Shown: positions 3,259 through 29,235 of the stretch, piece after piece
Layout of the letters: every line of letters begins with the position of its first letter
Numbering within the stretch: the stretch's first letter is position 1
Source of the DNA: Nisaea sp.
GTDB lineage: Bacteria; Pseudomonadota; Alphaproteobacteria; Thalassobaculales; Thalassobaculaceae
Length of the DNA: 64,000 nucleotides
Reading direction: 5' to 3'
Assembly (NCBI RefSeq): GCF_017640745.1
Contig: NZ_JAEPQA010000024.1
Coordinates: forward strand, 1-64,000
Notes under the pieces: model-generated
What the model was told of the DNA's origin: nothing
The model's input: the letters and a program-made list of their open reading frames with translations, nothing else
Database searches by the model: none
Position numbers and translations under genes: made by a program

Positions 3259-3906
3259 TTATCCCGGCGGACGCCGCAACGCCGCCTCTTCCTCCTGCCG
3301 TTGCCGCGTTTCCTCCGACCACTTGCTCTTCATGAAGGCAACCAGCGCCCAGATCCCGGCGTCCGAGATCTGCATTTCGAAGCCCGGCATGTCGTTCTTG
3401 TAACTGCGCGGCGAGAACGGCTGACCGCCATATTTGATAACGTCGAAAATATCGTCGTCGCTGAGCCGCCAGATCGGGGCGGTGCCGTCCAGCGGCAGCG
3501 CAGGCCTGTGGCCGCGCGGATAGTCACCGTCCCAACCAGCCTGCCCTTCGAGGGCATCGCCATGGCAGAATGCGCAATTGTTCCGGTAGAGCGCACGGCC
3601 TTCCGAGACCAGGACCGGATCCTGCCAGTCGGCCCGGACCGCGGTTTCGACGACCCGCCGCTCGTAATAGATCGACGCCGCCGTGATCGCGACGCCGATC
3701 AGGGTCGCAAAGGCGAGGAAGCGGCCTTTCGGACCAAGTTTGCGAGAGATGTTTGCCGCAAGGCTCCGTTCCGCTGCCTCGATCTCTTCTTCCGCCTCGT
3801 CGACAATCTCCCGCAATAACCGGTCGCTCCGGCGTTCTCCGCCGAGCGCCCGTGCCCGCATTCGCGCCAGCCTGCGGGACCGCCGCTCATCGCCGGTCCG
3901 GCTCAT
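3259..3906 (-). CDS. Membrane-anchored class I monoheme cytochrome c
   Basis: A 215-residue protein with a very basic cytoplasmic N-terminus (about 65 residues), one membrane segment (about 68-86) and a periplasmic cytochrome c domain. The heme site is CAFCH, and a methionine in the KNDMPGFEM segment is the likely sixth ligand. ATG 3906 is preceded by GGAGG six bases away, which decides against the longer TTG start at 3921. It is the last gene of the eight-gene electron-transfer operon, 79 bp after the large decaheme gene. It plausibly ferries electrons at the inner membrane to or from the multiheme proteins. Confidence 0.85.
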   Translation of the reverse strand: MSRTGDERRSRRLARMRARALGGERRSDRLLREIVDEAEEEIEAAERSLAANISRKLGPKGRFLAFATLIGVAITAASIYYERRVVETAVRADWQDPVLVSEGRALYRNNCAFCHGDALEGQAGWDGDYPRGHRPALPLDGTAPIWRLSDDDIFDVIKYGGQPFSPRSYKNDMPGFEMQISDAGIWALVAFMKSKWSEETRQRQEEEAALRRPPG

Positions 3907-3985
3907 CGCCCGCCTCCGCAATGGGTGAGATGTCTGACATGGTCCGGATCATACGCCATCGCGGCAGATCCGGCCAAGACGCGGG

Positions 3986-6900
3986 TCAATTGGCCTTTGC
4001 CTGCCGCCTGTCGCCGGCGGCGACGAAATCCTCTTGCCGGATCTCGTCACTGACGAAGTAGGGCGCGCCGGACTCGTTCAGATAGAAATGTTGCATCTCT
4101 TCCAGCGTGAACGGACGCGAACCGAGACGCCCGAAGATCGCGATCTGCCCCCCGGTCTCGTCCACACCGCGGTCCCGATCGAGCCCCTTCGAGAGCGCCA
4201 GAGCGGGATAGGCCGTCTTCTTCCAGGCGATCAGCTCCGGTTTCGGCTCCGGACTGAAGCCGTAGAAGCGCGGTTGCGTGTCCGGCGCGGTCAGCTGGAT
4301 CACCTTCAAACCGTTCACACCGTCCGCGACATAGGCGAAGAGCGACGCGTTGGTGGAGCCGACGACGACGTCACGGGCGTCAGAGATCGCCCCGTCCGCG
4401 TCGAACATCTGATGCAGCTTCGGCATCGTCGGATTCTTCACGTTGAGGATCGCCAGCCCGTCCCTGCCCGCGGCGACATAGGCATAGGTCCGCGCCACGT
4501 AGATCCGATGCGCGTCGGCAAGCGGGACCACTGCGCCCGGCACCCTGGAGATCTTCCGGGGATCGGTGACGTCGAAGACCTTTACGCCCTCGCGGTCGCT
4601 GACGAAGAGATAGCGGAACTGCACCGCCGTCGCCCGCGGATCGTCCATCGGAACCTGCTTCACCAGCGTCGGCGCGAGCGGATCGTCGAGATCGAGCACC
4701 ACGAGACTGTCCGGCGTCGTCACATAGACGAAATGACCGGCGACGGTGACATGGCGGGCACCGTCGAGCACGCCGTCTTCGTTCCAGGTCACTGCCCGGT
4801 CGAGGAAATTGTTGCGCGGTTCACCGTCGGCCATGGTGTTCACATTGACGAGGATCAGGCCTTCCTCGGCATCCGTGACCAGCGCGTAATTGTAGATCGG
4901 GTGGAACGGCTGTTCCTGGTTGGCCACCCGCATCAGCTCGCCCTCATTGCGCGGCGGATGGATCGGCTGGGTGCTCGGCAGCGCCATGCAGGTCGCATTC
5001 GCCGTCTCCACCTGGGTGTCGTGGCCGAGTTCGGAGAAGGGCGCGGTGATGATGCGCTGGCTGAAACCCTTGTTGGCGATCGAGGCGACATCATAGATAT
5101 GGAACCCACCCGGCCCCTCGGCGGTATAGAGATACTCGCCCCTGAGCTGCAGGCAGTTGGCCGCACCCGGCCCGTCATGTGCGTAGCTTTCCTTCAGTTC
5201 GCGTCCGGCCTTCTGGTGGTCCTCGTACCAGTCCGGATAGGCATAACGCTGCAGGTAGGAGCCGATCACCGCCTGCGGCTCGTCCCATTCGGTCACACGC
5301 ACCGCCTCGACACCGCCCTCGCCGCCGATCCAGGCGTTGTAGCCGACGAAATTCACGAAGTTGGTGCCGAGCAGCAGGAGTTGGGCCATCCGGGCGTTGT
5401 TGTCGTTCTTCTCCGAGAGGTGGCAGTCGGAGCAGGTCTTGGTCTCCTCCTTGCGCACCGTGTGCGGGAAATGCGGCGCGAAGGCCTGGCTGGAATAGCC
5501 CGCGGCCGCGATCGGCGCCTGCTGGATGTAGATTTTTTCGCGGTTTATGTTGGTCGAGGAGAGGATCAGCGCAGAGGAGGAGCGGACCGGCGCGATCGTG
5601 TTGCCCTTCGCTGTCGAGTGACGGCCGAGCTGGAACATCTGGTCGCGCACGACCTGCGGGTTATAGGTCGCGTAGTTGCGGGTCTCGCCGCCTTCGTAGT
5701 GATGACGCTCGGTTTTCCAGTTCGCCTGGATCGGCAGGTGACAGCCGGCGCAGCTCGTGGTCCAGGAGAGATGGCAGGTGAAGCACTCCATCTCGTCGTC
5801 CTTGTGCGCCCGCGCCTCCTTCGGCACGCCCGGCCCCCAGGACATATCGTCCGGATCGCCCTTCATCAGCTTCGCACGCGCCGCCTTGGCATTGTAGTCC
5901 GCGCTCGCAGGATCGACCGTGTTCTTCACCAGGCTGACCTGCCATTCGAGGCCCGGCCAGAGCGCGGAACGCTGGACCAGCGTCTTGCCGCGCCACTCGA
6001 AACGCCGGCTGCCATCCGAATTGCGGGTCAGTGAGATGTCGTTGCCGCCCTCCGGCGCCGCAGGCCCCGAGGTCAACAGGGTCGGATATTCGTCCGCCGT
6101 GCCGTGGCAGTCCTGACAGGTGATCTCGATGGCGTTTGCGACCTCGCCGTAGAGATGGCCGTTGCCATGCGCGTCCTGCTCGAAATGACAATCGACACAA
6201 TGCATGCCGACATCGAGATGGATCGAGGACATGTGCACGGCCTTCTTGAACTTGTCCGGGTCGTCCGGCGAGACGACGTTACCGTCCTTGTCGAGCAGGT
6301 TGCCGGCTTCGTCCTTCTTGAAGATCGCGCGGAAGTTCCAGCCGTGCCCGTGATAGTCGGCGAACTGGGTATTGTTCAGTTTCGGGTTCATCTCCGAAAC
6401 CTTGGCAAGGAAGGCCCTGTCGCCCCAGAGACCGCGGATCGCCGCCTCTTCCGGGTTGCGCTCGAGGATCGCGTGCATCTCCGCGTTGCTCGGATATTTC
6501 TGCTCCTTCGGCCACATGTGCGGCGCGTCGGACTCGTAGTCCCACATGGTGTAGCCGAGGAACGAGTTCACGAAGACGTTCGGCTGGTGCATGTGGCAGA
6601 CCATGCACTGGCTGGTCGGGATCGCGCTGGTAAACTCATGGCGCAGCGGGTGGCCCGGCTCGTTGCGCGGGATCGTCGGATCCTTGCTGTCCGTCACCCC
6701 CATGTGCCCGTGCTTCGAGTAGGGCCCGGAATGGCGCGGGTCGCGGTCGTTCGCATAGACCACATGGCAGGAGGCGCAGCCTGAGGAGCGGAAATCGCCC
6801 GGCTGGTCGTTGGTGCCGAGGAACCAGGTGAAGGGGTCGTTCAGGCGGGTCTTGTGGATGTTGATCACCGGCACCGCAATCCGGAGACCGGTTCCGGGGC

Positions 6901-7762
6901 CGCGGTTCGACTGTTTCAGATCCGGGCGGCCGGGTTCCTCCAGCCGCTGCAGCTGACCGAGCGCATTCGGCAGGCCGATTTCCGGGAACAGGTTGACGAT
7001 ATTGCGGCCGCCACGCTCGAAGACGCGGAAAATGTCGCCCGGCGGGATCACTTCCCAGGCCGGCATCGGCACCAGTTTCTCCAGCACGCCAGCGTCCTTC
7101 ATCTCGTCCGTCGGCGGCACCGGATTGGTCAGCGCCGCCGGCTGGCCGTCGCGGGTATAGGCTTCGCCGAGCAGGTAGTTCTTGTAGGGCAGGATACCGT
7201 TGTTATAGGCGGCTCCGCCCCAGAGCATTGCGCCGGTCGCCATCAGGCTGTTCTTCGCGGCGCGGATCTCCCGCGCGTGGCAGGCGCCGCAGGACTCGTC
7301 CACGACCCGGTAGTCGCTCGGATTGACGAAACGGATGAATTCCGGGCTCTCCCGGTTCAGCAGCGTGTAGGAGCGCTCCGGATTGGCGCTGGCCGGATAT
7401 TGCCAGCTCTCCGGATAGAGCGGCTGCACATGCGCCTTGTCGAGGGCGGTCCTGTAAGCCGTTTGCGAAGGCGCGCCTTCCGACGGCTTCATCACCGAGG
7501 CATTGCCGCCATGGCAGTCGGTACAGCCGAGCGGGACGCCGCCGCTCCGGTGCATGCTCGGCTCGTCCGTCTCGGTATGGCAGCTCATGCACCCGACGCT
7601 TTTGGCGTCGATCGCCTCCTTGGGCTGCCATTTCGGCGCCGGCGGCGTCGCGGTGTAGTGGATATCGCGCGGCTTCTCGCCTGATGCCGCCATCACCGCT
7701 CCCGGCGCAGCCGCAAGGAGCGTGAAAAGCAGGGCCAGGATGAGTGGAGTGCCGCGTCGCAT
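3986..7762 (-). CDS. Giant exported decaheme cytochrome c with C-terminal LVIVD-like beta-propeller
   Basis: A 1258-residue protein with a Sec signal peptide (cleavage near AVMA-AS, residue 25). I count ten CXXCH heme sites, with first cysteines at about residues 58, 80, 158, 329, 386, 522, 549, 660, 671 and 777. From about residue 870 to 1200 at least five repeats of the form YVTD..GL.V.DV..P appear (examples: YLFVSDREGVKVFDV, AYVAAGRDGLAILNV), typical of LVIVD-type propellers. It follows the outer-membrane barrel gene by 11 bp. I infer a periplasmic or cell-surface electron carrier whose propeller docks to the barrel or to a partner. No known terminal reductase signature such as a CXXCK site is seen. 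Confidence 0.88.
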   Translation of the reverse strand: MRRGTPLILALLFTLLAAAPGAVMAASGEKPRDIHYTATPPAPKWQPKEAIDAKSVGCMSCHTETDEPSMHRSGGVPLGCTDCHGGNASVMKPSEGAPSQTAYRTALDKAHVQPLYPESWQYPASANPERSYTLLNRESPEFIRFVNPSDYRVVDESCGACHAREIRAAKNSLMATGAMLWGGAAYNNGILPYKNYLLGEAYTRDGQPAALTNPVPPTDEMKDAGVLEKLVPMPAWEVIPPGDIFRVFERGGRNIVNLFPEIGLPNALGQLQRLEEPGRPDLKQSNRGPGTGLRIAVPVINIHKTRLNDPFTWFLGTNDQPGDFRSSGCASCHVVYANDRDPRHSGPYSKHGHMGVTDSKDPTIPRNEPGHPLRHEFTSAIPTSQCMVCHMHQPNVFVNSFLGYTMWDYESDAPHMWPKEQKYPSNAEMHAILERNPEEAAIRGLWGDRAFLAKVSEMNPKLNNTQFADYHGHGWNFRAIFKKDEAGNLLDKDGNVVSPDDPDKFKKAVHMSSIHLDVGMHCVDCHFEQDAHGNGHLYGEVANAIEITCQDCHGTADEYPTLLTSGPAAPEGGNDISLTRNSDGSRRFEWRGKTLVQRSALWPGLEWQVSLVKNTVDPASADYNAKAARAKLMKGDPDDMSWGPGVPKEARAHKDDEMECFTCHLSWTTSCAGCHLPIQANWKTERHHYEGGETRNYATYNPQVVRDQMFQLGRHSTAKGNTIAPVRSSSALILSSTNINREKIYIQQAPIAAAGYSSQAFAPHFPHTVRKEETKTCSDCHLSEKNDNNARMAQLLLLGTNFVNFVGYNAWIGGEGGVEAVRVTEWDEPQAVIGSYLQRYAYPDWYEDHQKAGRELKESYAHDGPGAANCLQLRGEYLYTAEGPGGFHIYDVASIANKGFSQRIITAPFSELGHDTQVETANATCMALPSTQPIHPPRNEGELMRVANQEQPFHPIYNYALVTDAEEGLILVNVNTMADGEPRNNFLDRAVTWNEDGVLDGARHVTVAGHFVYVTTPDSLVVLDLDDPLAPTLVKQVPMDDPRATAVQFRYLFVSDREGVKVFDVTDPRKISRVPGAVVPLADAHRIYVARTYAYVAAGRDGLAILNVKNPTMPKLHQMFDADGAISDARDVVVGSTNASLFAYVADGVNGLKVIQLTAPDTQPRFYGFSPEPKPELIAWKKTAYPALALSKGLDRDRGVDETGGQIAIFGRLGSRPFTLEEMQHFYLNESGAPYFVSDEIRQEDFVAAGDRRQAKAN

Positions 7763-7773
7763 GACCGCTCCCG

Positions 7774-9555
7774 TCAGTAGGTCAGGATCAGGTTCGCGAG
7801 AACCGTGTAGTAAGTGTCGTCATTGCGGTTCTGCTCGCCGTAGAGATCCTTGATGCCCTGCCCTGCGAACAGCACCGCACCCGAAAGGCGGAACACCACG
7901 TTCTGGGTGAAGAACGGACGGTAGATGAGTGCCGCCGACAGGTCCCAACCGATATCGCGCGAGATATCCTGCTGATTGCGCGCCACTTCGAGCACTGCGG
8001 TGTCGTCGAACTGCATGTAATTGAGGTTCGTCGAGAGCCGGAGTTCCGGAAGGATGTCGAAATCCGCACCGGCGCCGATCAAGCGGAAGCCCGGATTGTC
8101 GAAATTCGACTGACCGTGTTCCTTCGAGCCGCGCAATGACGGCAACATGGCGTTGCGGTTCGAAAGCACGACGCCGCCACCGCCGATCAGGGGAATTCCC
8201 TGGCGGATCCAGTAATTGGTGTCGGATCCGGCGATCTGCGGGTTCTCAAAGATCGCATCGAAGCCTCTCTGCGTGCCGTCGAACGGATCGTCGTCACCGG
8301 AGGCATAGACCAGCGAACCGCGCAGCCTGACCCAGTCGAAGTCGATCGACGGCTCCGCCGCCGCGAAGAAGGCGCTGACGTCCGCTTCCTCGTTGGTGAA
8401 CTGGCTGTTCCGGTTCGAGCCGAAGGCGTAATAGACCGAGGTCGTCAGGTTCAGGCGCCCGAAATGACCGTCGCCATTGTAGCCGATGTAGCCGACATCG
8501 TAGTTCCGTCCGCGCTCCGCCCCGAAGGAGGTCGGGCGCTGGATGAAATTGTTGTTGTCGAAGTAGAAATCGTCGCCTTCGCGGTTGCGGTTGTAGATGC
8601 CGGTGATCTGGCTCTGGTAACCGAGCGCCGGGAAATCCTGCCAGTAGAGATTGGCAACGAAGACATCGTCCTCCCGCAGCTTGCGGTCGACATCGTTGAG
8701 GCCGCTGTTGGTATCCTTCTCCAGCCGGCGGAACCAGGCGAGATTGTACTGGTAGATGTTGTTGTCGCGGTCGCCGAAGAAACGCACGCCGAGCTGGTTG
8801 TCCTGGAACAGGAAGCCTCGGAAGTCACTGGAGAAAGGCTGGATGCCGACACGGACCGAGTCGAAGTCGTAACGGTCCGAGACATTCCGGATGTGATAAT
8901 CGACGAAGGCTTCCTGCAGCGCGAAATGGGTGTCAGTGCGTTCCGTCCCCTGCCGCGGATCGGCATAGAGTACCCGGCGCTCCTGCACGTCCGCGTAATT
9001 GTAGTTGATGACCGGCGTCAGACGGAATTCGAGGTCCGGCGGCTTGAAGGCGGTGTCGCCCTTGATGAGCGACGCGCTGACGATGAAATTCTGGTTGAAG
9101 ACGAACTGATCGGTCTCACCGAAGAGATCGTAGTTCCCGGCATTGTCGGAGGACTGGACGCCGATCGGCGTCGGCACGCTGCGCGGTTCGGCGACCGTGT
9201 CGGAGATCGCGGCGATATTGACGAACCAGTCCTTGGTTCCGAGCAGCGGACGGTCACCTTTGATCGGGTTCCGGTTGTAGGGGTCGAGGATCGACTCCTC
9301 GACACCGACCGCCTCGATCAGACGCCAGCGGTCCGGAATGGGCGCGATATTAGACGGATCTTTCCGGCCCGGAGGCGCGACGCGCTGCTTGATCGCGGAA
9401 GACAGCGGCGCGCGCTGTTCGACCTCGGAGGGTGGCGTGCTGCCTGGCCGCTGACGCTCGATGCCTTGTGCGGAGAGATCGGACGCATAGCCGGCCGCCG
9501 CCAGCAATCCGCCGGCAAGCAGGACGCGGAGCATGCTCGTCACTTGCCGTTGCAT
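7774..9555 (-). CDS. Outer-membrane beta-barrel protein (porin-like) of the cytochrome operon
   Basis: A 593-residue exported protein with a signal peptide ending near LSAQG. The body is rich in alternating hydrophobic/polar aromatic strands (for example YDVGYIGYNGDGHFGRLNL) and it ends in a C-terminal tyrosine (VLANLILTY), as expected for a BAM-assembled barrel. ATG 9555 overlaps the upstream gene's stop by 16 bases and has GGAG about ten bases ahead; ATG 9534 is an alternative. About 100 further in-frame residues upstream are the shadow of the preceding gene. Lying between two cytochrome genes, it is the obvious candidate for the outer-membrane pore of a porin-cytochrome conduit. I do not see the N-terminal CXXC known from MtrB. 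Confidence 0.82.
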   Translation of the reverse strand: MQRQVTSMLRVLLAGGLLAAAGYASDLSAQGIERQRPGSTPPSEVEQRAPLSSAIKQRVAPPGRKDPSNIAPIPDRWRLIEAVGVEESILDPYNRNPIKGDRPLLGTKDWFVNIAAISDTVAEPRSVPTPIGVQSSDNAGNYDLFGETDQFVFNQNFIVSASLIKGDTAFKPPDLEFRLTPVINYNYADVQERRVLYADPRQGTERTDTHFALQEAFVDYHIRNVSDRYDFDSVRVGIQPFSSDFRGFLFQDNQLGVRFFGDRDNNIYQYNLAWFRRLEKDTNSGLNDVDRKLREDDVFVANLYWQDFPALGYQSQITGIYNRNREGDDFYFDNNNFIQRPTSFGAERGRNYDVGYIGYNGDGHFGRLNLTTSVYYAFGSNRNSQFTNEEADVSAFFAAAEPSIDFDWVRLRGSLVYASGDDDPFDGTQRGFDAIFENPQIAGSDTNYWIRQGIPLIGGGGVVLSNRNAMLPSLRGSKEHGQSNFDNPGFRLIGAGADFDILPELRLSTNLNYMQFDDTAVLEVARNQQDISRDIGWDLSAALIYRPFFTQNVVFRLSGAVLFAGQGIKDLYGEQNRNDDTYYTVLANLILTY

Positions 9556-11450
9556 GGCGTCTGCTCTCCGGAATCGAGGAACGGTGCGAACGGACAGGAG
9601 ACATAGCGGAGGCGCGTTCCCTGCGGAACGAGATTGTCCGCACGGATACCCGTCGGCGCATTGCCGATGCCGGTGCCGAGTTCGATCCCCGCATTGTGCA
9701 GTCCGAGGAAGGAAATCATGTCGTCCTGGTCGACGCCGTCGCCGGAGACGCCGATGCCGCCGACGAGCGTGCTGCCTCGATAGATCGGCACGCTGCCGGG
9801 GAAGATCTGAAACCCGTTCGCCGCCCGGCTTTTCCCGGTTTCCGGCTGGACCGGAAGGTTGCTGCAATTCTGCTGGGTATCGGTCGCACTCAGTCCGAGC
9901 AGGAAGGAGCGGTGCTGTACGATGTTCCCGATCACGGTGTCGAGCTGGAGGCCGGTATTGAACGGGCTCCAGACACTAATCGGCTGGCTGAACGGTCCGT
10001 TCGACGTTCCGTCGATCCCGTCCGGGAAATACGGGCGGGAGAGGTTACCGCCGGAACGGTCGGCGAAGGCGGTCCCGTCGGCAAGCGCCGTCGGCCCGAT
10101 GAAAGCACGGGCGTTCAGAACGTAGGTTCCGAGATTGCCCTGGATCAGCTCGGTCCCGGCGGTGGTGCTGGAGAAGAAGGCGGCGGTGCGCGCCTTCTGC
10201 AGGGAGACGTCTGTGCCGAAGACCGGCCCGTCCGGCGTCCGCACGATCCCGAGAATGTCGCCATTGGTATCCACCACCGAGATGGTTACCTGGGCATGGC
10301 TGCCGAGCGGACGGCGGATCTGTGCGCGGGCGCGGAAGGCGATGGAGAGCGCATTGCGCAGAATGGTCTGGACCTCGACCGCCGTCAGCGCGTCGGCGGT
10401 TCCTTCTGTCCCCGCCTTCGGCGTGAAGCGCGGCTGGTTCGCACTGTTGACGAGGACATAGGCGTCGAGATTGCCGAAGACGCCGCTGGTATCGGGCCGG
10501 TACCCGCTCGCCGCTGCGCCGAACACCGTCCCGGCCCGGATCGTGCCGTCGAAATAGGTCGCGACCGGCGTCAAACCGCCGACCGAAGCGGAGAGACTGT
10601 CGAAGGACGGCGCGGCGCCCGGCGTCGAGCGAAGCGCCGCGGAACCCCGGTCCGTAAAGCGGAAGGTCTTGCCTTCGACCGTGATCCGGTCGCCCCGGAC
10701 ATTCGCCGGCGCCTCGAACCCGACCGACCCGGCGACGGCGATCAACTCGTCACTGTCGGAATCGACATCGCCGACATTCAGGTCGGCGCTGTAGGTGCCG
10801 TCGGAAATCACCCCGATGGCGCCGACCGGCTCGTTGTTCTTGTAGAGCGGCACGCCCCCCGGATCGGCGGAGAGCCCGAGCGGAGAGCGCTTCGGGCCAA
10901 TCGTCACCGCCGCGCTGTTGGTCGCGATGGAGAGATCGGAACAGGGAAGCTGGCTGAACTGCACACCGAAGAGCGGTCCGCTCGGAGCGAACCGTTCGCG
11001 GGGATTGAAATGCTCCTGGACGATCTGGCTCGCGGTCCGGGTGGTGAAGGCATTGCCGCGCGAGGAGAGATAGGCGCCGGTGATGGCCTTTGCGATAGCC
11101 GCAACCGGTCCCGGTACGTCCACCCCTTCGAGACCGCCCTTGTTCGGGTCGCCAGAGGTCACGACGATGCAGCCGGTGGGCACCCCGCCAAGAGACACGG
11201 TGCAGTCGGTGCCCGAGATACTGAACTGCCGGTTTGCACCGATCATGTTGTAGACGGCGAGCACGTTGCCGACCCGGTCCGTCACCGCGATCGACGCAGG
11301 CGCGCCGCGTGCCTGGGCTTCCTGGATCGCCTGAGCGAGCACTCGCTTCACCTCCGCGACCGTCAGGCTCTCCTGCGCCTTCGCGGAGAAGCCAGCGGCG
11401 AGGCATACCAGCAGAACGCCGATCCCCAGAGCTCGAAACACTCTCTTCAT
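9540..11450 (-). CDS. Exported double GlcG/HbpS-like (DUF336) heme-binding protein
   Basis: A 636-residue exported protein (signal peptide ending GFSAKA). The first half contains the GlcG/HbpS signature (a helix like LTVAEVKRVLAQAIQEA, then SIAVTDRVGNVLAVY and a SSRGNAFTTRTAS segment). A second copy follows from about residue 360 (LTAVEVQTILRNALSIAF, then VVDTNGDILGIV). Known relatives bind or degrade heme. Paired cysteines such as TDCTVSLGGVPTGC could form disulfides. The start is ATG 11450, followed by a positively charged n-region. It sits in mid-operon between the small exported protein and the barrel. A heme-handling or structural role in assembling the decaheme proteins is inference. 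Confidence 0.8.
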   Translation of the reverse strand: MKRVFRALGIGVLLVCLAAGFSAKAQESLTVAEVKRVLAQAIQEAQARGAPASIAVTDRVGNVLAVYNMIGANRQFSISGTDCTVSLGGVPTGCIVVTSGDPNKGGLEGVDVPGPVAAIAKAITGAYLSSRGNAFTTRTASQIVQEHFNPRERFAPSGPLFGVQFSQLPCSDLSIATNSAAVTIGPKRSPLGLSADPGGVPLYKNNEPVGAIGVISDGTYSADLNVGDVDSDSDELIAVAGSVGFEAPANVRGDRITVEGKTFRFTDRGSAALRSTPGAAPSFDSLSASVGGLTPVATYFDGTIRAGTVFGAAASGYRPDTSGVFGNLDAYVLVNSANQPRFTPKAGTEGTADALTAVEVQTILRNALSIAFRARAQIRRPLGSHAQVTISVVDTNGDILGIVRTPDGPVFGTDVSLQKARTAAFFSSTTAGTELIQGNLGTYVLNARAFIGPTALADGTAFADRSGGNLSRPYFPDGIDGTSNGPFSQPISVWSPFNTGLQLDTVIGNIVQHRSFLLGLSATDTQQNCSNLPVQPETGKSRAANGFQIFPGSVPIYRGSTLVGGIGVSGDGVDQDDMISFLGLHNAGIELGTGIGNAPTGIRADNLVPQGTRLRYVSCPFAPFLDSGEQTPCNGK

Positions 11451-11469
11451 CACCCCCCGCACTTCCCCG

Positions 11470-11916
11470 TCAATGCGTGCCTGGATTCACCAATTCGACC
11501 ACTCCGAACTTGAAGCTGGATGCGGTCTCGTAGGCGATGGTCACCCGGATCGGGAACAGCTCGCCTCTCAGGTCCTCTCCCCTGAAGACCTTTACCTTCA
11601 TCACGTTGCCGGCAACCGGAGAGTGATTGTCCACCAGACTGTCGAGCCGGCCGTCCCACGGGATCCAGTAGCCGAGATTGGTCCGCTGCAGGACGTCCCC
11701 GTCCCCGGTCCGGGCGCTCACGTAATTGGCGGTCGGCTGGTCGCCCCCGAGTGAGACTTCGATCTCCACCGAGACGCTCGCACTGTCGACATTCACCTGG
11801 GCCAGCCGTGCGCCGTCCTCGCTGAGGACAACCGGATCGGCAAAGGCGGTTCCGCAGGCCACGGCGAGAAGAGAAAACACGACCAGGCCGCCGCGATATA
11901 AGTGCCGGAAATTCAT
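11470..11916 (-). CDS. Small exported protein of unknown function in the cytochrome operon
   Basis: A 148-residue protein with a signal peptide (MNFRHLYRGG start, cleavage near AFA-DP). The mature part is beta-rich with no cysteine or heme site and contains a hydrophobic-strand pattern around SVEIEVSLGG and KVKVFRGEDL. Its ATG overlaps the TGA of the FHA-decaheme gene (ATGA), so translation is probably coupled, and the DUF336 gene starts 19 bp downstream. I do not recognise the family. An accessory or assembly subunit of the conduit is a guess from position. Confidence 0.78.
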   Translation of the reverse strand: MNFRHLYRGGLVVFSLLAVACGTAFADPVVLSEDGARLAQVNVDSASVSVEIEVSLGGDQPTANYVSARTGDGDVLQRTNLGYWIPWDGRLDSLVDNHSPVAGNVMKVKVFRGEDLRGELFPIRVTIAYETASSFKFGVVELVNPGTH

Positions 11917-13622
11917 TGCGCCGCAGTCTCCCTTGCCGGATGCATCGGCGGCATGCCGTCCAGATGGAAAGCATGACAGGTTACGCAGGGGCTGGGTACC
12001 CGGTCCGAGACGGTCTCCCCGCCGTGACAGTCGCGGCAGACGGCGATCTTCGGCAGCAGCACATCGGAACTCTCGACGGACTCCGCCGCCGCGTGGCAAT
12101 CGGCGCAGACAACATCCTCATGTGCGCCGTGATCGAAACGTGCCTTCGGATGCCAGACCGCCGCGACCTTCACCGGCGCGACGGAAAGCTCCTGCGGCGC
12201 ACCTTCCGTGTTCGTGAGCACATGACAGCTCCCGCACTGGCTCTTGGAGAACAGATAGCGCGCCGCCCAGTCCGCCTTCTGCCGGGCCCAGGCCAGCGCC
12301 TCGGGCCGCTCTTCCGCCGTCAGCGGCGTGCCCGGACGCCGCCGCACCACGGCCGGCGCCTCCGGCTCCTGCACGCCGCCGTCAAGCGCGCGGGCGGCAT
12401 AGAATTCCTGCACCTCGCGATAAACCAGCTCCGGCTTGCCATGGGAGACGGTGCGCTTCGGCGCATCCTGATCGAAGGTCAGCTTGTGGCACCCGCCGCA
12501 ATTGTCCTCCATGACCAACGGCTTCATGAGTGCGCCGCCGGCTTCCGGCACGTGGCAGCTGGCGCATTCGAGCTGTGTGTTCTGGCCCGTCTCCGGATCC
12601 TTCATCTTCTTCGGGTCGAGGTGGGTCTTGTGCGGGAAGCGCAGGTTCGAAACTTCCTTCGGGGTGTCGTCCAAGCTGATGCGCGCCTGTTTCCCGGCCC
12701 CCGGATCGGTCCAGACGGTCGCCCGGAACTGGGGATGCGCCGTGCCGAAGTCGCCTGCGTTCAGAAGCGCCGTCTGCGGCCACGCCTTGTCGAGACTCTC
12801 GTGACAGGAAGAGCAAAGCCGCTGGCGCTCGGAGCGGATCGGCTCCGGCCCATTATGCTCCGTGTGACAGGTTGCGCAGCGGGTCTCCGTGATGCCGGTC
12901 GCGACAGAGGCGTCCAGCGTCGCATGCGCATGCTGTGCGGTGTGGCAGGAGGCGCAGGCCGCGTCTTCGACCTGGATGAAAGGCTTGGTGTGGCAAGCGC
13001 TGCAATTGTCCGCGAAAAACTTGTGCGAGTTCATCATCTCGCCGGGATTCCAACTGATGTCGAACCCCATCTCATGCCCCTTCGCCATCGCGGCACCCGC
13101 GGCGGCGGCATCCACCGGCGCGTCCTTCTCCGGCGCAAGGAAGGGCCAGATCACCGGTACGGCGAGGAACATAGCAAGGATGAGCAGCGAGAGAACCCAC
13201 GCGGTCCCGCGCTTGCTAATGCCCGATTCGGCGACCGAGAGGCAGGACCGGCGGCGGAGTTCCTCGAGATCGTCGCCAAGCGGCTGCGTCAGTTCCAGCG
13301 TCACCCCGAGATCGAAACCGTCCGGCTTTTTCTCGACGACGATCTCGTAGGGACCGGCGCCGAGCGTGTCCCCGGACTTGAGCAACGCCGTCCGGGTCAC
13401 TGCGCCGTTCACGCGCAGGTCGACGCTCCCGACAGCCTCGACGAATAACCCGTCATTGTTCAGGTGGATGACACCGAGATGGAGCGGCACACGGGGATCC
13501 GGCAGAAAGATCTCGTTGTCGCTGCCCCGCCCGATGCGCAGGACTTCCGCGGAGACGAGCTCTTCCCTCCGGCCGATCCCGCCCTTGGCCCGTCGTGTCA
13601 GTGTGGTGATCCGCGCGTCCAT
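11913..13622 (-). CDS. FHA domain - transmembrane - decaheme cytochrome c fusion
   Basis: A 569-residue protein with three parts. Residues about 20-100 form a forkhead-associated domain (core RIGRGSDNEIFLPDP, then HLGVIHL and VNG turns). A single membrane helix lies at about 141-161. The periplasmic part carries ten CXXCH sites, with first cysteines at about 207, 223, 249, 270, 353, 375, 463, 506, 529 and 546. FHA domains bind phosphothreonine or mediate protein contacts, and here the domain must face the cytoplasm. The gene starts 7 bp after the cytochrome b gene and overlaps the next by four bases. I infer an inner-membrane-anchored periplasmic electron bridge that may be controlled by phosphorylation. 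Confidence 0.88.
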   Translation of the reverse strand: MDARITTLTRRAKGGIGRREELVSAEVLRIGRGSDNEIFLPDPRVPLHLGVIHLNNDGLFVEAVGSVDLRVNGAVTRTALLKSGDTLGAGPYEIVVEKKPDGFDLGVTLELTQPLGDDLEELRRRSCLSVAESGISKRGTAWVLSLLILAMFLAVPVIWPFLAPEKDAPVDAAAAGAAMAKGHEMGFDISWNPGEMMNSHKFFADNCSACHTKPFIQVEDAACASCHTAQHAHATLDASVATGITETRCATCHTEHNGPEPIRSERQRLCSSCHESLDKAWPQTALLNAGDFGTAHPQFRATVWTDPGAGKQARISLDDTPKEVSNLRFPHKTHLDPKKMKDPETGQNTQLECASCHVPEAGGALMKPLVMEDNCGGCHKLTFDQDAPKRTVSHGKPELVYREVQEFYAARALDGGVQEPEAPAVVRRRPGTPLTAEERPEALAWARQKADWAARYLFSKSQCGSCHVLTNTEGAPQELSVAPVKVAAVWHPKARFDHGAHEDVVCADCHAAAESVESSDVLLPKIAVCRDCHGGETVSDRVPSPCVTCHAFHLDGMPPMHPARETAAQ

Positions 13623-13629
13623 GATCCGG

Positions 13630-14457
13630 TCACCAGTAGTAGAAGACGGAAATGATATGCGCGGTCAGCGCGGCGAGCAGCGCGAAAGACAGCGGCACAT
13701 GCAGATGCAGCCAGATGTCCATCAGCGCCTTCAGCTGGATATCGCGCCGGACGGTCGCGAGCAGCGAGCATTTCTTGCCGATCAGCGTCAGCAGCTTGCG
13801 CACCGACGGTCCATGCTCCGGGCCGACATTGGTGCTCACGCGGCGCAGCTCCTCGAACGCCTCGGCAGCCGCGCATTTGCGATCCCTGCCGGAAAGCTGC
13901 CTCCAGCAAGAGCCTCCGATCCGGGTCTCGTTGCTGGACTTCAACACCAGCGACGCGATCTCGTCCGGCAGATTGGCCGAGACCTGACGGCATTCCCGGT
14001 CGATATCGCCGATCTGGCTGAGAAACTCGTCAAGCGACAGGCCCCGCCGGTTCTCGGTCATCATCCGCGGATAACGGGCATAGGCGTAGATCCCGAAAGC
14101 GCCGCTCGCGATCACCAGCATCATCAGCACGTAGGCCAGCGTGTGCACGTTCCAGCCGAGTTGAAATCCGGTATGCAGGGTCGCAACCACGATCAGGCTG
14201 AGCCCGAGATAGACATGAGCGGAGAGCCAGGAACGCAGACGGAAGGCGCCGCCGTAGCGCCGCTTGCGGATGCCGAACCACATCAGCCAGACGATCAGCA
14301 CGGCCCCGATCGTCCCGAGACCGTAGCCGAGCCAGGTCCCGCCGCTCTGCACGTCGAGCGGATCGTAGATCGCATAGGCGACGGCCGAGAGGATGCAGAG
14401 CGCGCTCGCCCATTTCAGGAATTTGAAATTGCTGTGAACCAGGAACCCCTCGTGCAT
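13630..14457 (-). CDS. Membrane cytochrome b-like protein (candidate diheme quinone/electron transfer subunit)
   Basis: A 275-residue membrane protein with about five hydrophobic helices: residues 13-31, 42-62, 77-98, 105-125 and 250-272. Histidines inside helices at about 81 and 95 (SAHVYLG, TLHTGF) and at 251/253 and 267 (WLHLHVP, LTAHII) are spaced as bis-histidine ligands for two b hemes. A soluble loop of about 115 residues separates helices four and five and contains two cysteines (GGSCWRQ, KKCSLL). ATG 14457 has GGAGG five bases ahead and lies 2 bp after the stop of the oxidoreductase gene. It most likely carries electrons between the ferredoxin module and the periplasmic decaheme protein. 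Confidence 0.8.
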   Translation of the reverse strand: MHEGFLVHSNFKFLKWASALCILSAVAYAIYDPLDVQSGGTWLGYGLGTIGAVLIVWLMWFGIRKRRYGGAFRLRSWLSAHVYLGLSLIVVATLHTGFQLGWNVHTLAYVLMMLVIASGAFGIYAYARYPRMMTENRRGLSLDEFLSQIGDIDRECRQVSANLPDEIASLVLKSSNETRIGGSCWRQLSGRDRKCAAAEAFEELRRVSTNVGPEHGPSVRKLLTLIGKKCSLLATVRRDIQLKALMDIWLHLHVPLSFALLAALTAHIISVFYYW

Positions 14458-14459
14458 CC

Positions 14460-16853
14460 CTACCTCCCGAACCGTGCGAGGTTGGTGATGGAGAGAAACT
14501 CCTCGGGTCTGACGCGGATCGCGGCCCCCGTCGGGCAGGCGCTGACGCAGGACGCGCCACCGGTGATGTCCTTGCACATGTCGCATTTCACTGCGGACTC
14601 ACGGGCGCCGTCCGGCTTCACCACCGGGCGCTTGTCCTCGCCCGGTCCCGGACCGCTTCCGAACAGCAACCACGAGAGCAGCCCCGGCTTCTTGGGGCGC
14701 GGATAGGCCATCTGGATCACGTTATAGGGGCAGTCGCGGGCGCAATTGCCGCAGCCGATGCACTTGTCGTCGATGAAGACCTCGCCGTCCGGCGCGCGGT
14801 GGATCGCGTCGGCCGGACAGTCCGCCATGCAATGTGGATGCTCGCAATGCCGGCAGGAGGTCGGGACATGCAGCGTGCCGAAGGTCGGGCCGGCCTCGCG
14901 GTTGAGGCGCGAGACACCGCCATGGGTCTCCGCGCAGGCCTTCTCGCAATTGTCGCAGCGCACGCAGAGGCTCTCGTCGATCAGCAGGATGTCGGTCGCC
15001 TCGCCGACGCCCTGATTGACCAGGAAGTCGATGATATCGCCGGACTCGGGCCGGGTTTCCGTCTGCACGTTCTCGACCAGCCGGTCCTGGAAGCGGGATT
15101 CGATCTCCCGCCGCAGATCCGGCTCGCGGTCCAGCAGGCTCCGGAAGGCCGCGGCATTGATCCTGATTGCCTCGGAGGCGACCGTCGCCTTCACGGTGGC
15201 CGAGCGCGGCGTGTTCCCGAGCAACGCCATCTCGCCGATATAGTTTCCGGCAGGAATGTAGGAGAGCACGATATCGCGGCCGGCGATGCGCCGGGAAACG
15301 GTCATCGAGCCGGTGCGGATCAGATAGACGTCGTTACTCGTCTCGCCTTCGGTGATCACGGTGTCGCCCGCTGAGAAACTCTCGATCTCGGCGGTCTCGA
15401 CAACCTCCCGCAGCATCTCCGGATCGATGTTCGGCGCCAGATGCATCTGGATCTGGCGCGAGATCGCGGCCTGGTCGAGGACCCGGCGCGCCGCCGGGAC
15501 CGAGTTGATCAGGCGCAGCATGGCGCGGCGCGGCGTCTCGACCAGGAAGCACTGCTCGCGGGCGACGATCGTCGCCGTCCGGCGACGGCCCGCGATCAGG
15601 CCCATCTCTCCGAAGAACGAGCCCGCACCGAGGGTGACGACCTCGCTCGGATCCAGCGGATTGATCTGCACATCGACGGCGCCGTTCACGATGGAATAGA
15701 CGCTGTTGGTGTAGTCGTTCCGCTCGAAGATCACGTCGCCCGGCTGCTTCAGATGCACCGTACTGTCGATCATGAATTCGCGGAGCTGCAGCATCGTCAT
15801 GGAGGAGAGAAGCGGCACGTTCGACTGGATCGCGCCCAGGACGTCCTCGACCTTCACATTGCCGAGGACCCTGAACTTGTTCTCGAGGAGCGGCTCGTCG
15901 GCGGGCTTCACCTCGTTGCCCATGATCGTCTCGACGACCTCGTACCCCTGGTTCATCGCCAGCTTGATCAGCGGATAGCCTGCCAGCGCGCCGATGACAT
16001 AGAGGCCGGGGACGGAGGATTCATAAGTCTGGGAGAGCTCGGGCAGCGCGCCCGGATCGTCGCTCGCGAAACTGATACCGCATGCTTCGACGAATTTACG
16101 CGGCGGGTTCGCACCGAGACGGGCGATGACCCGGTCGCAGGCCACCACACTTTCACCTTCCGGCACTTTCAGCGTGATCCGGCCCGGCTCGACGCTGAGC
16201 GGTGCGGCATCGTAGAAGCATTCGATCCTGCCGCTTTCGATCGCTTCCGTGATCAGCGACAGGTTGCCCGGCTTGGCGCGCGCGAACTCGCCGCGCCGGT
16301 TGACGATCACCACATTGTTCTGGGCCGCGAGCCCGATGGCGTTCTCGATCGCCGCATCGCCTGCACCGACCACGACAATCGTTTCGTCCTCGTATTCCAG
16401 CGGATCGTCGAGCTGATACTGCACACGCTCCCATTCAGCTCCCGGAACCCCGAGCTTGCGGAGGTTCCCCTGCAATCCGATGGACAGCACGACATGTCCG
16501 GCGGAGACGGTATCTCCATTTGCCAGCGTGACCGTGAAATCGCCCTTCTGGCCGCTGATCCCGGTGACCTCCGCCTTGTACCGGATATTTACCCCGAGGT
16601 TTTCCAGCTCCCGGTCCCAGGTGCCGAGAATGTCCTCGCGAACGCCAGCCTCGAAACTCATGTCGCTTCGCAGCGGCATGATGTCGGGCGTCGCCATGAC
16701 GAATTTCTTTTTCTGGTATTTGAAAATGGTGTCGGCGGCGTGGTCCGTGCGCTCCAGCAGCAGATGCGGAATGCCTCGTTCGGCCGCACGTCCGGCAGCG
16801 CTGAGCCCAGCGGGACCAGATCCGACGATCACAATTTCAAAGCGATCAATCAC
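14460..16853 (-). CDS. FAD/NAD(P) oxidoreductase fused to two cNMP-binding domains and a four-cluster ferredoxin
   Basis: A 797-residue cytoplasmic protein. Residues 1-315 form a thioredoxin-reductase-like flavoprotein (FAD motif GSGPAG near 11, pyridine-nucleotide motif GAGDAAIE near 163), but with no redox CXXC, which points to a ferredoxin reductase-like role. Two cyclic-nucleotide domains follow (about 340-455 and 475-595), both keeping the phosphate cassette (FFGEMGLI..RRRTA and YIGEMALL..PRSA). Residues 625-790 carry four cysteine groups (CVRCDNCEKAC, CRHCEHPHCMADC, CIGCGNCARDC, CDMCKD..CVSAC), enough for four [4Fe-4S] clusters in the NrfC/HybA style. The start is GTG 16853. It is the first gene of the operon and probably the electron entry point, gated by cAMP or cGMP. 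Confidence 0.9.
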   Translation of the reverse strand: MIDRFEIVIVGSGPAGLSAAGRAAERGIPHLLLERTDHAADTIFKYQKKKFVMATPDIMPLRSDMSFEAGVREDILGTWDRELENLGVNIRYKAEVTGISGQKGDFTVTLANGDTVSAGHVVLSIGLQGNLRKLGVPGAEWERVQYQLDDPLEYEDETIVVVGAGDAAIENAIGLAAQNNVVIVNRRGEFARAKPGNLSLITEAIESGRIECFYDAAPLSVEPGRITLKVPEGESVVACDRVIARLGANPPRKFVEACGISFASDDPGALPELSQTYESSVPGLYVIGALAGYPLIKLAMNQGYEVVETIMGNEVKPADEPLLENKFRVLGNVKVEDVLGAIQSNVPLLSSMTMLQLREFMIDSTVHLKQPGDVIFERNDYTNSVYSIVNGAVDVQINPLDPSEVVTLGAGSFFGEMGLIAGRRRTATIVAREQCFLVETPRRAMLRLINSVPAARRVLDQAAISRQIQMHLAPNIDPEMLREVVETAEIESFSAGDTVITEGETSNDVYLIRTGSMTVSRRIAGRDIVLSYIPAGNYIGEMALLGNTPRSATVKATVASEAIRINAAAFRSLLDREPDLRREIESRFQDRLVENVQTETRPESGDIIDFLVNQGVGEATDILLIDESLCVRCDNCEKACAETHGGVSRLNREAGPTFGTLHVPTSCRHCEHPHCMADCPADAIHRAPDGEVFIDDKCIGCGNCARDCPYNVIQMAYPRPKKPGLLSWLLFGSGPGPGEDKRPVVKPDGARESAVKCDMCKDITGGASCVSACPTGAAIRVRPEEFLSITNLARFGR

Positions 16854-16925: not shown

Positions 16926-16954
16926 ACGATATGCGTTAACTCACATGCTGTCAA
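16926..16954 (-). promoter_or_regulatory. Candidate promoter of the eight-gene electron-transfer operon
   Basis: On the minus strand a perfect -35 TTGACA (16949-16954) is separated by exactly 17 bp from TATCGT (16926-16931), a four-of-six match to the -10 consensus. It would place the transcript start about 65-70 bases before the GTG at 16853. No other good promoter was noticed between the later genes of the operon, whose gaps are small. Confidence 0.55.
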
Positions 16955-17018: not shown

Positions 17019-17816
17019 TCAAAGGCCCGCAATCCAGGCGACCCAGCCCGCCAACGCAAGGAAGGGACCGAAGGAAATTCGGGCATTGCGCGCAATAGAT
17101 CCGCGCGCGATTCCTGCGCCGGCAAGCACCGCAAGCGCCCCGCCGGAGGCCATCAGGATCATCAGGGGCAGGGCGCCGACGCCGATCCAGGCACCAAGCC
17201 CGGCAATCAGTTTCACGTCGCCCAATCCGAGCCCGTCGGTTCCCCGGCAACGCTGGTAAGCGACTCCGACCAGCCAGGCGCCGCCGCCGCCGAGCACTGC
17301 TCCGGCGGCACTTTCGACCGGAGATACCGGCCCCGCCACGAACGAGAATCCCAGCCCGGCGACCAGCAAAGGCAGAGTGACAGCGTCCGGGAGCCGACCG
17401 GTGCGCAGATCGTGAAAGCCGAGAAAGACGAGCGCGAGCCCGAATGCGATACCGGCAGCGACGCGGGGAGAGAACGTCCAACCCGCCTCGATCAGTGCGG
17501 ATGCGACAATTATGGCAGCCATCACCTCCATCAACGGGAACAATGGATCGATCTTGTTCCCGCATGTCGCGCAGCGCCCCCGCAATGCAATGTATCCGAG
17601 CAAGGGCACCAGCGCGAAAACCGGAACCGGATCGCCGCACTCTGCGCAATGCGACCGTCTGGCGCCGAAAACGGGGACATGGCGGGCACTGCGCGAGACG
17701 CAAGTAGCCAGAAAACTGCCGATTGCCAGCGCTGCCGCCAGCAAAATCGCACCATGAATGAAGCGGTCTTCAGCCAAAAAAACCAGTCTCCCGATGCCCG
17801 TGCTCTTGTCACCCAC
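17019..17816 (-). CDS. gspO: Prepilin peptidase / N-methyltransferase of the type II secretion system
   Basis: A 265-residue polytopic membrane protein of the GspO/PilD family, which cleaves and N-methylates pseudopilins. The cytoplasmic zinc site is present (CAEC and CATC), and the two aspartate motifs are seen as FHDLRTGRLPD and GLGDVKL, the active site of these aspartic peptidases. About eight hydrophobic helices are visible. The start (GTG 17816) has no clear ribosome site, so it may begin slightly later. It lies apart from the main gsp operon (19647-30855) but on the same strand, directly upstream of the electron-transfer operon, and would process the GspG, I, J and K pseudopilins. Confidence 0.9.
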   Translation of the reverse strand: MGDKSTGIGRLVFLAEDRFIHGAILLAAALAIGSFLATCVSRSARHVPVFGARRSHCAECGDPVPVFALVPLLGYIALRGRCATCGNKIDPLFPLMEVMAAIIVASALIEAGWTFSPRVAAGIAFGLALVFLGFHDLRTGRLPDAVTLPLLVAGLGFSFVAGPVSPVESAAGAVLGGGGAWLVGVAYQRCRGTDGLGLGDVKLIAGLGAWIGVGALPLMILMASGGALAVLAGAGIARGSIARNARISFGPFLALAGWVAWIAGL

Positions 17817-17858: not shown

Positions 17859-18212
17859 ATGTCGAGAAACGATACGCTAGCACTTCTGCTCGCGAGTGCC
17901 GCGGCCTGCTCCGTCTTTGTCGGCGCCGGGACCTGGATTGCGGGTTTGCCACGGGATGTCGCACGGCCAACGGCGGGATCCGGGCCGTCTTTACCTGACG
18001 CACAGATCGAGAACCTTCTTGTTCATCTGCAGAAAGATCCGCGCGACGTCGAAGCCTTGAAGCGGCTCGGTGCACTCTACGCCGAAACCGGCCAACTGAA
18101 GGAAGCCGTGTCGGCCTACGTCTCTGCCTCCATCGAAAACCCCGGCGATGCCGAAACTAAACGTGCCGTGATGGAGCTGCAGGCCCGGGCGCAGCAAAAA
18201 GGAAAACATTAG
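17859..18212 (+). CDS. Small anchored TPR protein
   Basis: A 117-residue protein with one N-terminal membrane or signal segment (LALLLASAAACSVFVGAG) and a short TPR region (NLLVHLQKDPRDVEALKRLG, then LYAETGQLKEAVSAYVSA), as found in the C-terminal part of cytochrome c biogenesis protein CcmI/CycH. It is divergent from gspO and 69 bp upstream of the cytochrome c554-like gene. A chaperone-like part in maturing that cytochrome is a reasonable guess but not shown. Confidence 0.75.
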   Translation: MSRNDTLALLLASAAACSVFVGAGTWIAGLPRDVARPTAGSGPSLPDAQIENLLVHLQKDPRDVEALKRLGALYAETGQLKEAVSAYVSASIENPGDAETKRAVMELQARAQQKGKH

Positions 18213-18281
18213 GCGCTATCATCGGCCGAAAAGAGCCGAGCGGCGAAACGAGAACAACGGATGGGGAGCTCCGGAGGGACT

Positions 18282-19646: not shown

Positions 19647-20723
19647 CTATTCCTCCCTGACGCTGAGGCCGAACGGCCCGGTTCCGGCGCAACAGTGCCG
19701 GACCTCAAGCGTATAGGCCCCCGCCGCCAGATCCGCTTCGAGGGCGAAATTGTAGCCGTCGCCGCCATCGTCGTTTCGGGCGACGACCGTCCCGTCCGCC
19801 GAACGCAGCACCGCCTCGACATCGCTCGGACCGGTCGACGTGACGGCGAGCCGGCCGCCTTCGGTTGCGGGAAGGGTGAAACGGACCGTCTCCCCGGCCT
19901 GGGTGATCGACGCCGCGACACCGTCCTGCAGAGGCCTCGGTCCGGCGGAAGCGGGCGGCTCCCGCCCGGGCGTCCGGGGCGCGGCTCCGTCGCGGACCGA
20001 GACGTCGCGTTCTGCAACAGGCCGAAACCGCACGCCCTCACGGTACCCGAGTACGGCCTGACGCCCTTCCGCTCCCGGAACAGCCGAGATGCTGGCGGCC
20101 ACACCGCCCCCCTCGAGCGGTTCCGAACGCACCTCAAGTCCGGCGGTCCCGACCGCGATATCGGCCTCGGAGAAGGTCAGCGTCCGAGCCCCGCCAGGAT
20201 CGAGAATGATGGGCCCGCTGTTTTCGGCAAGCGCTTCGTCGAGCGCGCCCGCCAGAGAGGCAAGAGACGCGTCGACCGGAGTTGAGCGGGCGATTTCGGC
20301 AAGGCTCTCCGGCACCGCCATGCTGCGCGCAAGCAACAGCCGCAACAGATCGGACAGGGCGGCTTCCGGTGCGTCGAACCAGCGGCCGGGCGCCCCGGCG
20401 AGCGAGAAGAAATAGCGTTCGCCGTCGCGCCGGAAGCGGAGACGGCCTTCCGGCTTTTCCCCGCCAAGCTGACGGTAGAGGTCGTAGATCCCGAGACAGC
20501 GCTCGGCCCAGGCCCGGTCTCCCGGACCGTAAGGCTGCCCGCCTTCGCCGCCGGCAAGATCCTCGCCCGCGTCGTAGAACATCAGCGTGCCGAGCACGGA
20601 ACCCGAATTGTGCGCTTCACCGAGAACTCTCTCGGCTCCCGCGCGGATCGTCGCGGCCGAGACCGGTGACAGCGCCACGAGCAGAAGCGCGCCGCCTGCC
20701 AGCAGGAGAGAGGCGGCGCGCAT
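19647..20723 (-). CDS. Exported protein with C-terminal PPC-like domain
   Basis: A 358-residue protein with a clear signal peptide (MRAASLLLAGG start, cleavage near VSA-AT). The last 95 residues (from about DGVAASITQAGETVRFTLPA to the end) look like a bacterial pre-peptidase C-terminal domain, a beta-sandwich common on secreted enzymes. The remainder has no motif I recognise, although it carries a FYDAGEDL segment near the N-terminus. ATG 20723 has GAGGA seven bases ahead and is preferred over ATG 20729. It is the last gene of the gsp operon, 10 bp after the dehydrogenase, and could be a T2SS substrate. Confidence 0.72.
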   Translation of the reverse strand: MRAASLLLAGGALLLVALSPVSAATIRAGAERVLGEAHNSGSVLGTLMFYDAGEDLAGGEGGQPYGPGDRAWAERCLGIYDLYRQLGGEKPEGRLRFRRDGERYFFSLAGAPGRWFDAPEAALSDLLRLLLARSMAVPESLAEIARSTPVDASLASLAGALDEALAENSGPIILDPGGARTLTFSEADIAVGTAGLEVRSEPLEGGGVAASISAVPGAEGRQAVLGYREGVRFRPVAERDVSVRDGAAPRTPGREPPASAGPRPLQDGVAASITQAGETVRFTLPATEGGRLAVTSTGPSDVEAVLRSADGTVVARNDDGGDGYNFALEADLAAGAYTLEVRHCCAGTGPFGLSVREE

Positions 20724-20733
20724 CGTCATGTCC

Positions 20734-24457: not shown

Positions 24458-24458
24458 C

Positions 24459-29234: not shown

Positions 29235-29235
29235 T

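Follow-up and report, generated by a model that had tools for sequence, protein, structure and literature searches.

A conserved multihaem cytochrome cluster from Nisaea sp. and its candidate role in exporting electrons from NAD(P)H across the cell envelope

A 64,000-nt stretch of DNA from Nisaea sp. (NZ_JAEPQA010000024.1, assembly GCF_017640745.1; the whole stretch is called the window here, and positions refer to it) carries a redox system that consists of seven minus-strand genes, g1–g7 (3986–16853), and a divergent plus-strand gene for a pentaheme cytochrome, g9 (18261–19604). These genes supply parts, redox or structural, for every step between NAD(P)H and the outer membrane, and on balance we read them as a chain that starts at NAD(P)H and exports electrons across the cell envelope. 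The system is conserved in many bacteria, without any name that we could find. No paper naming the g1–g7/g9 cluster came up in the open-licence literature of PubMed Central (PMC), as judged by titles and the starts of abstracts, and the preliminary description of this DNA had likewise not recognised a named system. The components are as follows.

14460..16853, minus strand: g1, 797 aa; FAD/NAD(P) domain (YpdA/thioredoxin-reductase-like), two tandem cyclic-nucleotide-binding (cNMP) domains and a HybA/HycB-like ferredoxin domain
13630..14457, minus strand: g2, 275 aa; membrane cytochrome b-like, with H84/H98 and H256/H270 (each H-x13-H) and H108 invariant (numbered in the 278-residue frame of the alignment)
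11913..13622, minus strand: g3; weak FHA domain, transmembrane (TM) segment and decaheme part with ten CxxCH and ten further invariant His; Pfam Cytochrome_C7/c3
11470..11916, minus strand: g4, 148 aa; small, probably exported, no known family
9540..11450, minus strand: g5; double HbpS/GlcG-like protein, probably exported, with a lipobox in many other lineages
7774..9555, minus strand: g6, 593 aa; outer-membrane barrel, modelled with 18 strands, AlgE/OprD-like
3986..7762, minus strand: g7, 1258 aa; decaheme with C-terminal LVIVD beta-propeller (Pfam LVIVD and c3)
18261..19604, plus strand: g9; c554-like pentaheme cytochrome with one CX4CH and four CxxCH

The gene set and its order recur in many other bacteria. 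A search for g7 in 61 genomes (own included) gave matches in 16, several of them fragments; the match in G057 is ExtM-like rather than g7. Nine fetched regions contain the whole of g1-g2-g3-g4-g5-g6-g7 in identical order (one g7 is cut by a contig end), and shorter regions show the same order over the length covered. At E 1e-30 or better, g7 is found in 11 of 398 genomes of the phylum (own included). A pattern search of named genomes returned at least 595 matches, of which at least 594 encode a g7 relative; the best 80 loci were fetched, and hence counts from this set are biased towards close relatives. Their titles include Oceanibacterium, Limnobacter, Duganella, Parahaliea, Haliea, Steroidobacter, Nitrosomonas, Methylococcus, Woeseiaceae and Lysobacterales, with many metagenome-assembled genomes. 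Gene presence was scored by tblastn, ORF-based counts being lower owing to a greedy ORF caller that skipped genes in some loci. By this measure, 63 of the 64 testable loci have g6 no more than 600 bases upstream of g7, and g5 is upstream in 58 of 59. Among the 37 loci with full flanks, g1, g2 and g3 are each present in 36, g9 in 25 and g4 in 9 (mostly titled Alphaproteobacteria), while 24 hold all of g1, g2, g3, g5, g6, g7 and g9. Some loci vary the arrangement, with g1 last or g1–g3 on the opposite strand. Thirteen plasmid records (twelve Sphingobium, one Sphingopyxis) also carry g7. With one order recurring in nine relatives and widely beyond, the arrangement is no accident. Conservation of the order among Rhodospirillales had been proposed as a check; the order of g1–g7 is in fact kept well beyond them. 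A known dedicated reductase nearby, which the preliminary description took as a sign against a conduit, was not recognised among the Pfam-scanned neighbours.

The pattern of conserved Cys and His agrees with the chain proposed below. For these counts the relatives were thinned to <98% identity, and five doubly present genomes were dropped. In g1, 16 Cys, equivalent to four [4Fe-4S] clusters, are invariant in 50/50 relatives, and no Cys is conserved outside the Fe-S part. The second Rossmann motif of g1 is kept (G163 and G165 in 56/56 rows, R186 in 54), as are both cNMP cassettes (R425 and R550 in 56/56), the rows here being those of an unthinned set that counts five genomes twice. Pfam assigns cNMP, Pyr_redox and Fer4 to g1, and regulatory subunits of protein kinase A are among the best PDB matches of its cNMP part. 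Five His of g2, two H-x13-H pairs plus one, are invariant in 37/37 relatives. All 50 relatives of g3 have ten CxxCH and exactly ten other His; those of g7 have ten CxxCH and thirteen other His in 81/81 cases, with one more His in 78; and g9 shows one CX4CH, four CxxCH and five other His in 50/50, with a sixth His in 45. Exactly ten CxxCH were counted in 58/61 labelled ORFs for g3 and 87/89 for g7, and each of the five exceptions runs up to a locus end. A second ligand is thus possible for every c haem of g3, g7 and g9, which suggests that these proteins act as wires. The domains reported earlier (the FAD/NAD(P), cNMP and ferredoxin module, ten CxxCH per decaheme, double HbpS, LVIVD and a monoheme cytochrome c) were all confirmed. 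The FHA-TM-decaheme bridge fared less uniformly: its TM and decaheme parts stand, while the FHA domain falls below the Pfam gathering score (14.9 vs 20.7 bits; E 0.036) and is missing from the N-termini of g3 in Limnobacter and two Duganella. Compared by profile instead, the g3 family does resemble FHA domains of known structure (6cah, E 8.9e-4). For g4, neither Pfam nor a PDB profile search gave a significant match.

The HbpS domain of g5 was formerly known as DUF336. Four Cys of g5 are present in 55/55 thinned relatives, and a lipobox-like site is present in 35/65 sequences of the unthinned set, none of these in loci of family f1; the best PDB match is EfgA (E 4.3e-6). For g6, Pfam gave nothing and the PDB profile search no significant match. 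In a model built from 40 sequences (pLDDT 80.3), a manual count of strands at least nine residues long gives 18, in line with the earlier proposal of a barrel. Its best fold match is AlgE (Z 29, 364 residues, 2.9 Å), followed by OprD-type porins, and this comparison lends no support to a wide, MtrB-like barrel. MtrB and PioB are not among the best 50 fold matches listed, an absence that excludes nothing. As modelled, g6 would be a barrel of normal bore, and a cytochrome threaded through it looks unlikely. The model of g7 (mean pLDDT 62.9) is confident for most of the C-terminal propeller and in patches only; its PDB fold search returned propellers of many kinds, the haem part being too poorly modelled for use, and the best match of a PDB profile search had E 0.68.

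In the chain that we infer from these parts, hydride from NAD(P)H would pass in the cytoplasm to the FAD of g1 and then, as single electrons, through its four [4Fe-4S] clusters. The two tandem cNMP domains would gate g1, probably with cAMP from a neighbouring CHASE2 cyclase. Electrons would cross the inner membrane via two b haems of g2 and enter g3, a protein anchored in that membrane whose ten bis-His haems would lead on to the pentaheme g9. From there they would reach an outer-membrane module made up of the barrel g6, the HbpS-like g5 and the decaheme-propeller g7. The outward direction is suggested by the NAD(P)H end of the chain, and the departure of electrons from the cell is plausible. 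As electrons would flow outward from NAD(P)H, and neither an oxidase nor a quinone step could be recognised among the clustered genes, disposal of redox equivalents or reduction of an outside substrate fits better than energy-conserving respiration.

The ORF read-out of the window gives eight minus-strand ORFs within 3259–16853, as first described, with short gaps or overlaps: 2 nt between g1 and g2, 7 nt between g2 and g3, a 4-nt overlap of g3 and g4, ∼19 nt between g4 and g5 (7 with a GTG start), a 16-nt overlap of g5 and g6, 11 nt between g6 and g7, and 64–79 nt between g7 and g8, depending on the start codon chosen. The claim of a single promoter finds no support: two promoter-like sites, ahead of g1 and ahead of g8, compare with 1.8 expected by chance. 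Nor does the monoheme cytochrome g8 belong as an eighth component. We rejected it, since two congeners (G002, G003) keep it at the same site without g1–g7. The earlier parts list had also overlooked the pentaheme gene, the type II secretion genes and the CHASE2-cyclase gene. A TPR protein and a prepilin peptidase are encoded between g9 and g1, and a PPC-like protein, the type II secretion locus and the cyclase beyond g9.

3259..3921, minus strand: g8, monoheme cytochrome c; backbone gene, outside the system
16926..16954, minus strand: promoter-like TTGACA-N17-TATCGT ahead of g1 (10/12 match; the number of such sites is not above chance)
17019..17816, minus strand: A24 prepilin peptidase (Pfam Peptidase_A24 over cut-off)
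17859..18212, plus strand: small TPR protein (sub-threshold Pfam matches)
19647..20729, minus strand: PPC-like protein with a signal-like N-terminus (sub-threshold PPC match); candidate cargo of type II secretion
20734..21873, minus strand: zinc alcohol dehydrogenase; lies between the two blocks, belongs to the backbone and is outside the system
21888..30912, minus strand: genes of type II secretion; Pfam identifies gspE, F, G, M and D, gspL is assigned as a PilN-domain gene, and gspI, J, K and C/N by position or look, without a family match
31009..33258, plus strand: CHASE2-adenylate/guanylate cyclase (PF05226 E 5.6e-54, PF00211 E 9.1e-19)

Matches over the Pfam cut-off to Secretin, T2SSE, T2SSF, T2SSG, T2SSM_b and Peptidase_A24 identify a type II secretion system (T2SS), and its distribution among congeners links it to the cytochromes. 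The blocks 3986–20729 and 21888–33258 are both present in G001 and G004 and jointly missing from the site in G002 (98% complete) and G003 (100% complete), which reads L1756 – g8 – alcohol dehydrogenase – GNAT. Genome-wide, G002 and G003 were searched for g7, T2SSG and CHASE2, the other block genes being judged absent at this site; neither genome has a match to g7 or T2SSG, and each encodes other CHASE2 proteins elsewhere. This joint presence and absence shows g8 and the dehydrogenase to be backbone, with cytochromes, T2SS and cyclase travelling together in the genus. In G010, G020 and G026, which belong to two other genera, the T2SS genes, the PPC gene and g9 adjoin one another, with the alcohol dehydrogenase gene missing, and G026 has a single stretch that continues via the TPR and prepilin peptidase genes and g1 as far as g3. 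The dehydrogenase, being backbone at the site in G002 and G003 and absent from these contiguous blocks, was likewise rejected as a component. Across family f1, T2SSG is found in 13/14 g7-positive versus 4/22 g7-negative genomes (Fisher 1.5e-5, relatedness ignored; these genomes are mutually related, and the value overstates their independence). The sole g7-positive genome without T2SSG (G033) is 59% complete. As for the four g7-negative genomes with T2SSG, G006 is a true exception (see below), G009 represents a weak match with two stops, and the contigs of G030 and G032 (62 and 71% complete) end inside the T2SS. Surface cytochromes of Shewanella are described as T2SS exports (PMC7096707). Co-inheritance with a T2SS in one genus, though indirect evidence, together with the lipoprotein form of g5, leads us to favour an outer or surface role. 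The outer membrane is the likeliest site of action of g7; in family f1 this may be the cell surface, with the linked T2SS assisting.

Control by cyclic nucleotides, already suggested in the preliminary description, is well supported by the two domains, their nearly invariant cassettes and the CHASE2-cyclase nearby. Cyclase-like matches occur near g7 in 7/91 loci (within the fetched flanks), PP2C matches in 16/91 and FHA matches in 12/91. In the four loci read (L098, L111, L116, L134), PP2C and FHA-type genes directly follow g9 and may form a phospho-signalling arm. Taken together, the cNMP domains, the cyclases near copies of the system and the PP2C and FHA genes suggest that the chain answers to signalling. 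In L111 (Parahaliea maris; 14979–17113 and 20145–23669), a PP2C phosphatase and an FHA-type protein are encoded, with Ser/Thr kinase and caspase-domain genes further along. On the Sphingobium herbicidovorans plasmid pMSHV (L144:1-10656), the module has as neighbours genes for a CHASE2 protein, for a two-partner secretion transporter and for a 2092-aa protein that lacks CxxCH.

Several observations weigh against electron export through the outer membrane. The g2 protein has a sub-threshold Pfam match only and no significant relative in the PDB, which leaves its earlier assignment as a membrane cytochrome b with five invariant His and no family match over the cut-off. The haem part of g7 is modelled with low confidence, and g7 lacks a general lipobox: a loose scan gave 13/90, and four of the six examples listed are haem motifs or lie mid-protein. 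The g6 barrel, as modelled, looks too narrow for an MtrB-style multihaem wire. Co-inheritance also has an exception in G006 (C174; L167, L171), where the same kind of T2SS locus has no cytochromes alongside; and in G014 and G018, two of the 13 f1 genomes positive for both g7 and T2SSG, no other Gsp protein of the window surrounds T2SSG, which may belong to a different system. The link is weak in family f13, with T2SSG in 15/27 g7-positive versus 19/52 g7-negative genomes. As 12 of these 27 g7-bearing genomes lack a T2SSG match, we rejected obligate T2SS dependence as a general rule. Finally, the narrow barrel and the relationship of g7 to ExtM keep a soluble acceptor in contention.

A serious rival is a periplasmic reductase of oxyanions or other soluble small molecules with a porin of its own, in which substrate would enter via g6 and be reduced by g7 and g9 with electrons from g1–g3, on the model put forward for selenite and tellurite reduction by the Geobacter ext cluster. 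We think it unlikely, though well worth weighing. Among named proteins, g7 comes closest to ExtM, encoded in the selenite/tellurite operon (75.6 bits, E 2.5e-21; cut-off 800), and the haem region of g7 is colinear with ExtM-like cytochromes of 10–12 haems (up to E 1e-19, ∼20–27% identity). A normal-bore, AlgE/OprD-like g6 would suit a small-solute pore, and loss of the porin-like ExtI is described as impairing selenite and tellurite reduction (PMC5877670, PMC6148476). However, the invariant His suffice to make all c haems bis-His, leaving no obvious catalytic haem; in the genus of the window, the block comes and goes together with an entire T2SS; and g5 has a lipobox in many lineages. Moreover, ext itself is treated as a putative outer-membrane conduit, and a Geobacter strain in which extHIJKL alone was left still showed partial reduction of Fe(III) and Mn(IV) oxides (PMC6148476).

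Reductive acquisition of iron or haem, with g7 reducing extracytoplasmic Fe(III) or haem and the HbpS-like g5 holding the product, strikes us as quite improbable. Relatives of the g5 type do include 4nkp, titled putative extracellular heme-binding protein (E 0.0012), but ten-haem wires seem excessive for assimilation, and the neighbours looked at showed no recognisable siderophore receptor, TonB system or ferrous transporter, though no search aimed at these was made. More improbable still is electron uptake, in which an extracellular donor would supply electrons that the chain carries inward to NAD(P)+. In principle such chains can run either way, and the record behind one locus (L097, Haliea) has an isolate name starting with Biocath. 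Against uptake, NAD(P)+ reduction requires a donor below about −0.3 V, Pfam recognised no quinone reductase or oxidase in the operon, and the recognisable hosts are mostly described as aerobic heterotrophs. The AlgE fold of g6 also brought polysaccharide export into consideration; against it, OprD-type porins match g6 nearly equally, and no glycosyltransferase was recognised among the scanned neighbours, none having been searched for.

We therefore retain NAD(P)H-fed electron export as the preferred reading. Its fullest version, a widespread, cAMP-gated and quinone-bypassing export from NAD(P)H through both membranes in largely aerobic Proteobacteria, with a surface decaheme-propeller and a narrow AlgE-type barrel, is put forward tentatively. 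If it is true, many bacteria have a dedicated exit for cytoplasmic reducing power that is gated by a second messenger; extracellular electron transfer would then reach beyond specialist anaerobes and be coupled with cAMP signalling and, in one lineage, with type II secretion. Many of the host bacteria are not regarded as metal reducers. Even with a soluble acceptor, this would be a common, strongly conserved redox system for which no name was found. It occurs in Sphingobium, Limnobacter, Duganella, Parahaliea and Steroidobacter, all of which have strains in culture, making the proposal directly testable.

Elsewhere in the window, 47424–53131 holds a cluster of imelysin, di-haem oxidoreductase (DHOR) and imelysin genes followed by one for a monoheme cytochrome c, and two DUF1538 proteins are encoded side by side at 58720–60398. 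Among the relatives, proteins that we take by look or position, without a family match, to be CcmF/CcmI lie near the module in L055, L057, L089, L093, L096, L101, L113, L119 and L127.

Of the known systems, one of the closest is the Geobacter extHIJKLMNOPQS cluster, which likewise has an outer-membrane porin, multihaem cytochromes and an inner-membrane cytochrome b (ExtI, ExtM/N, ExtP). As described in PMC5877670, these parts are joined in ext by a Rieske protein, a rhodanese and a putative selenoprotein. The system described here has instead the NAD(P)H/cNMP/4Fe-4S protein, the double HbpS protein, the LVIVD propeller and the AlgE-like barrel; neither an ExtO Rieske nor an ExtH rhodanese domain appears in the Pfam results for g1–g8, g9 and the scanned neighbours (for g1, among the best 25 of 27 families). 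The haem region of g7 is a distant colinear homologue of ExtM, with 75.6 bits against an NCBIfam cut-off of 800, and a search of 398 genomes with the ExtM family gave matches in 27, none over the cut-off. Four proteobacterial loci (L030:9209-11560, L146:715-3279, L147:1144-3525, L148:1111-3558) encode 12-haem ExtM-like cytochromes that score 181–198 bits to ExtM, also under the cut-off.

With MtrCAB and PioAB the system shares a barrel gene beside decaheme cytochrome genes. The g3 family profile weakly matches 6r2q_A (E 5.4e-5), which is listed as cystathionine beta-synthase and which we take to be MtrA of an MtrCAB structure, and g7 has a sub-threshold match to an MtrC domain only (E 0.0022). 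The barrel differs, having 18 strands and an AlgE-like fold rather than the wide, 26-stranded form of MtrB, and so does the electron source: MtrCAB is fed by quinol via CymA, here replaced by NAD(P)H. Eukaryotic NADPH oxidases and ferric reductases, with their paired H-x12/13-H helices, also pass electrons from NADPH through FAD to two b haems. The analogy is functional only. A PDB search found no sequence similarity for g2, and the chain proposed here interposes 4Fe-4S clusters after FAD and adds c haems after the b haems. We regard the system as a new form of the porin-plus-multihaem-cytochrome kind.

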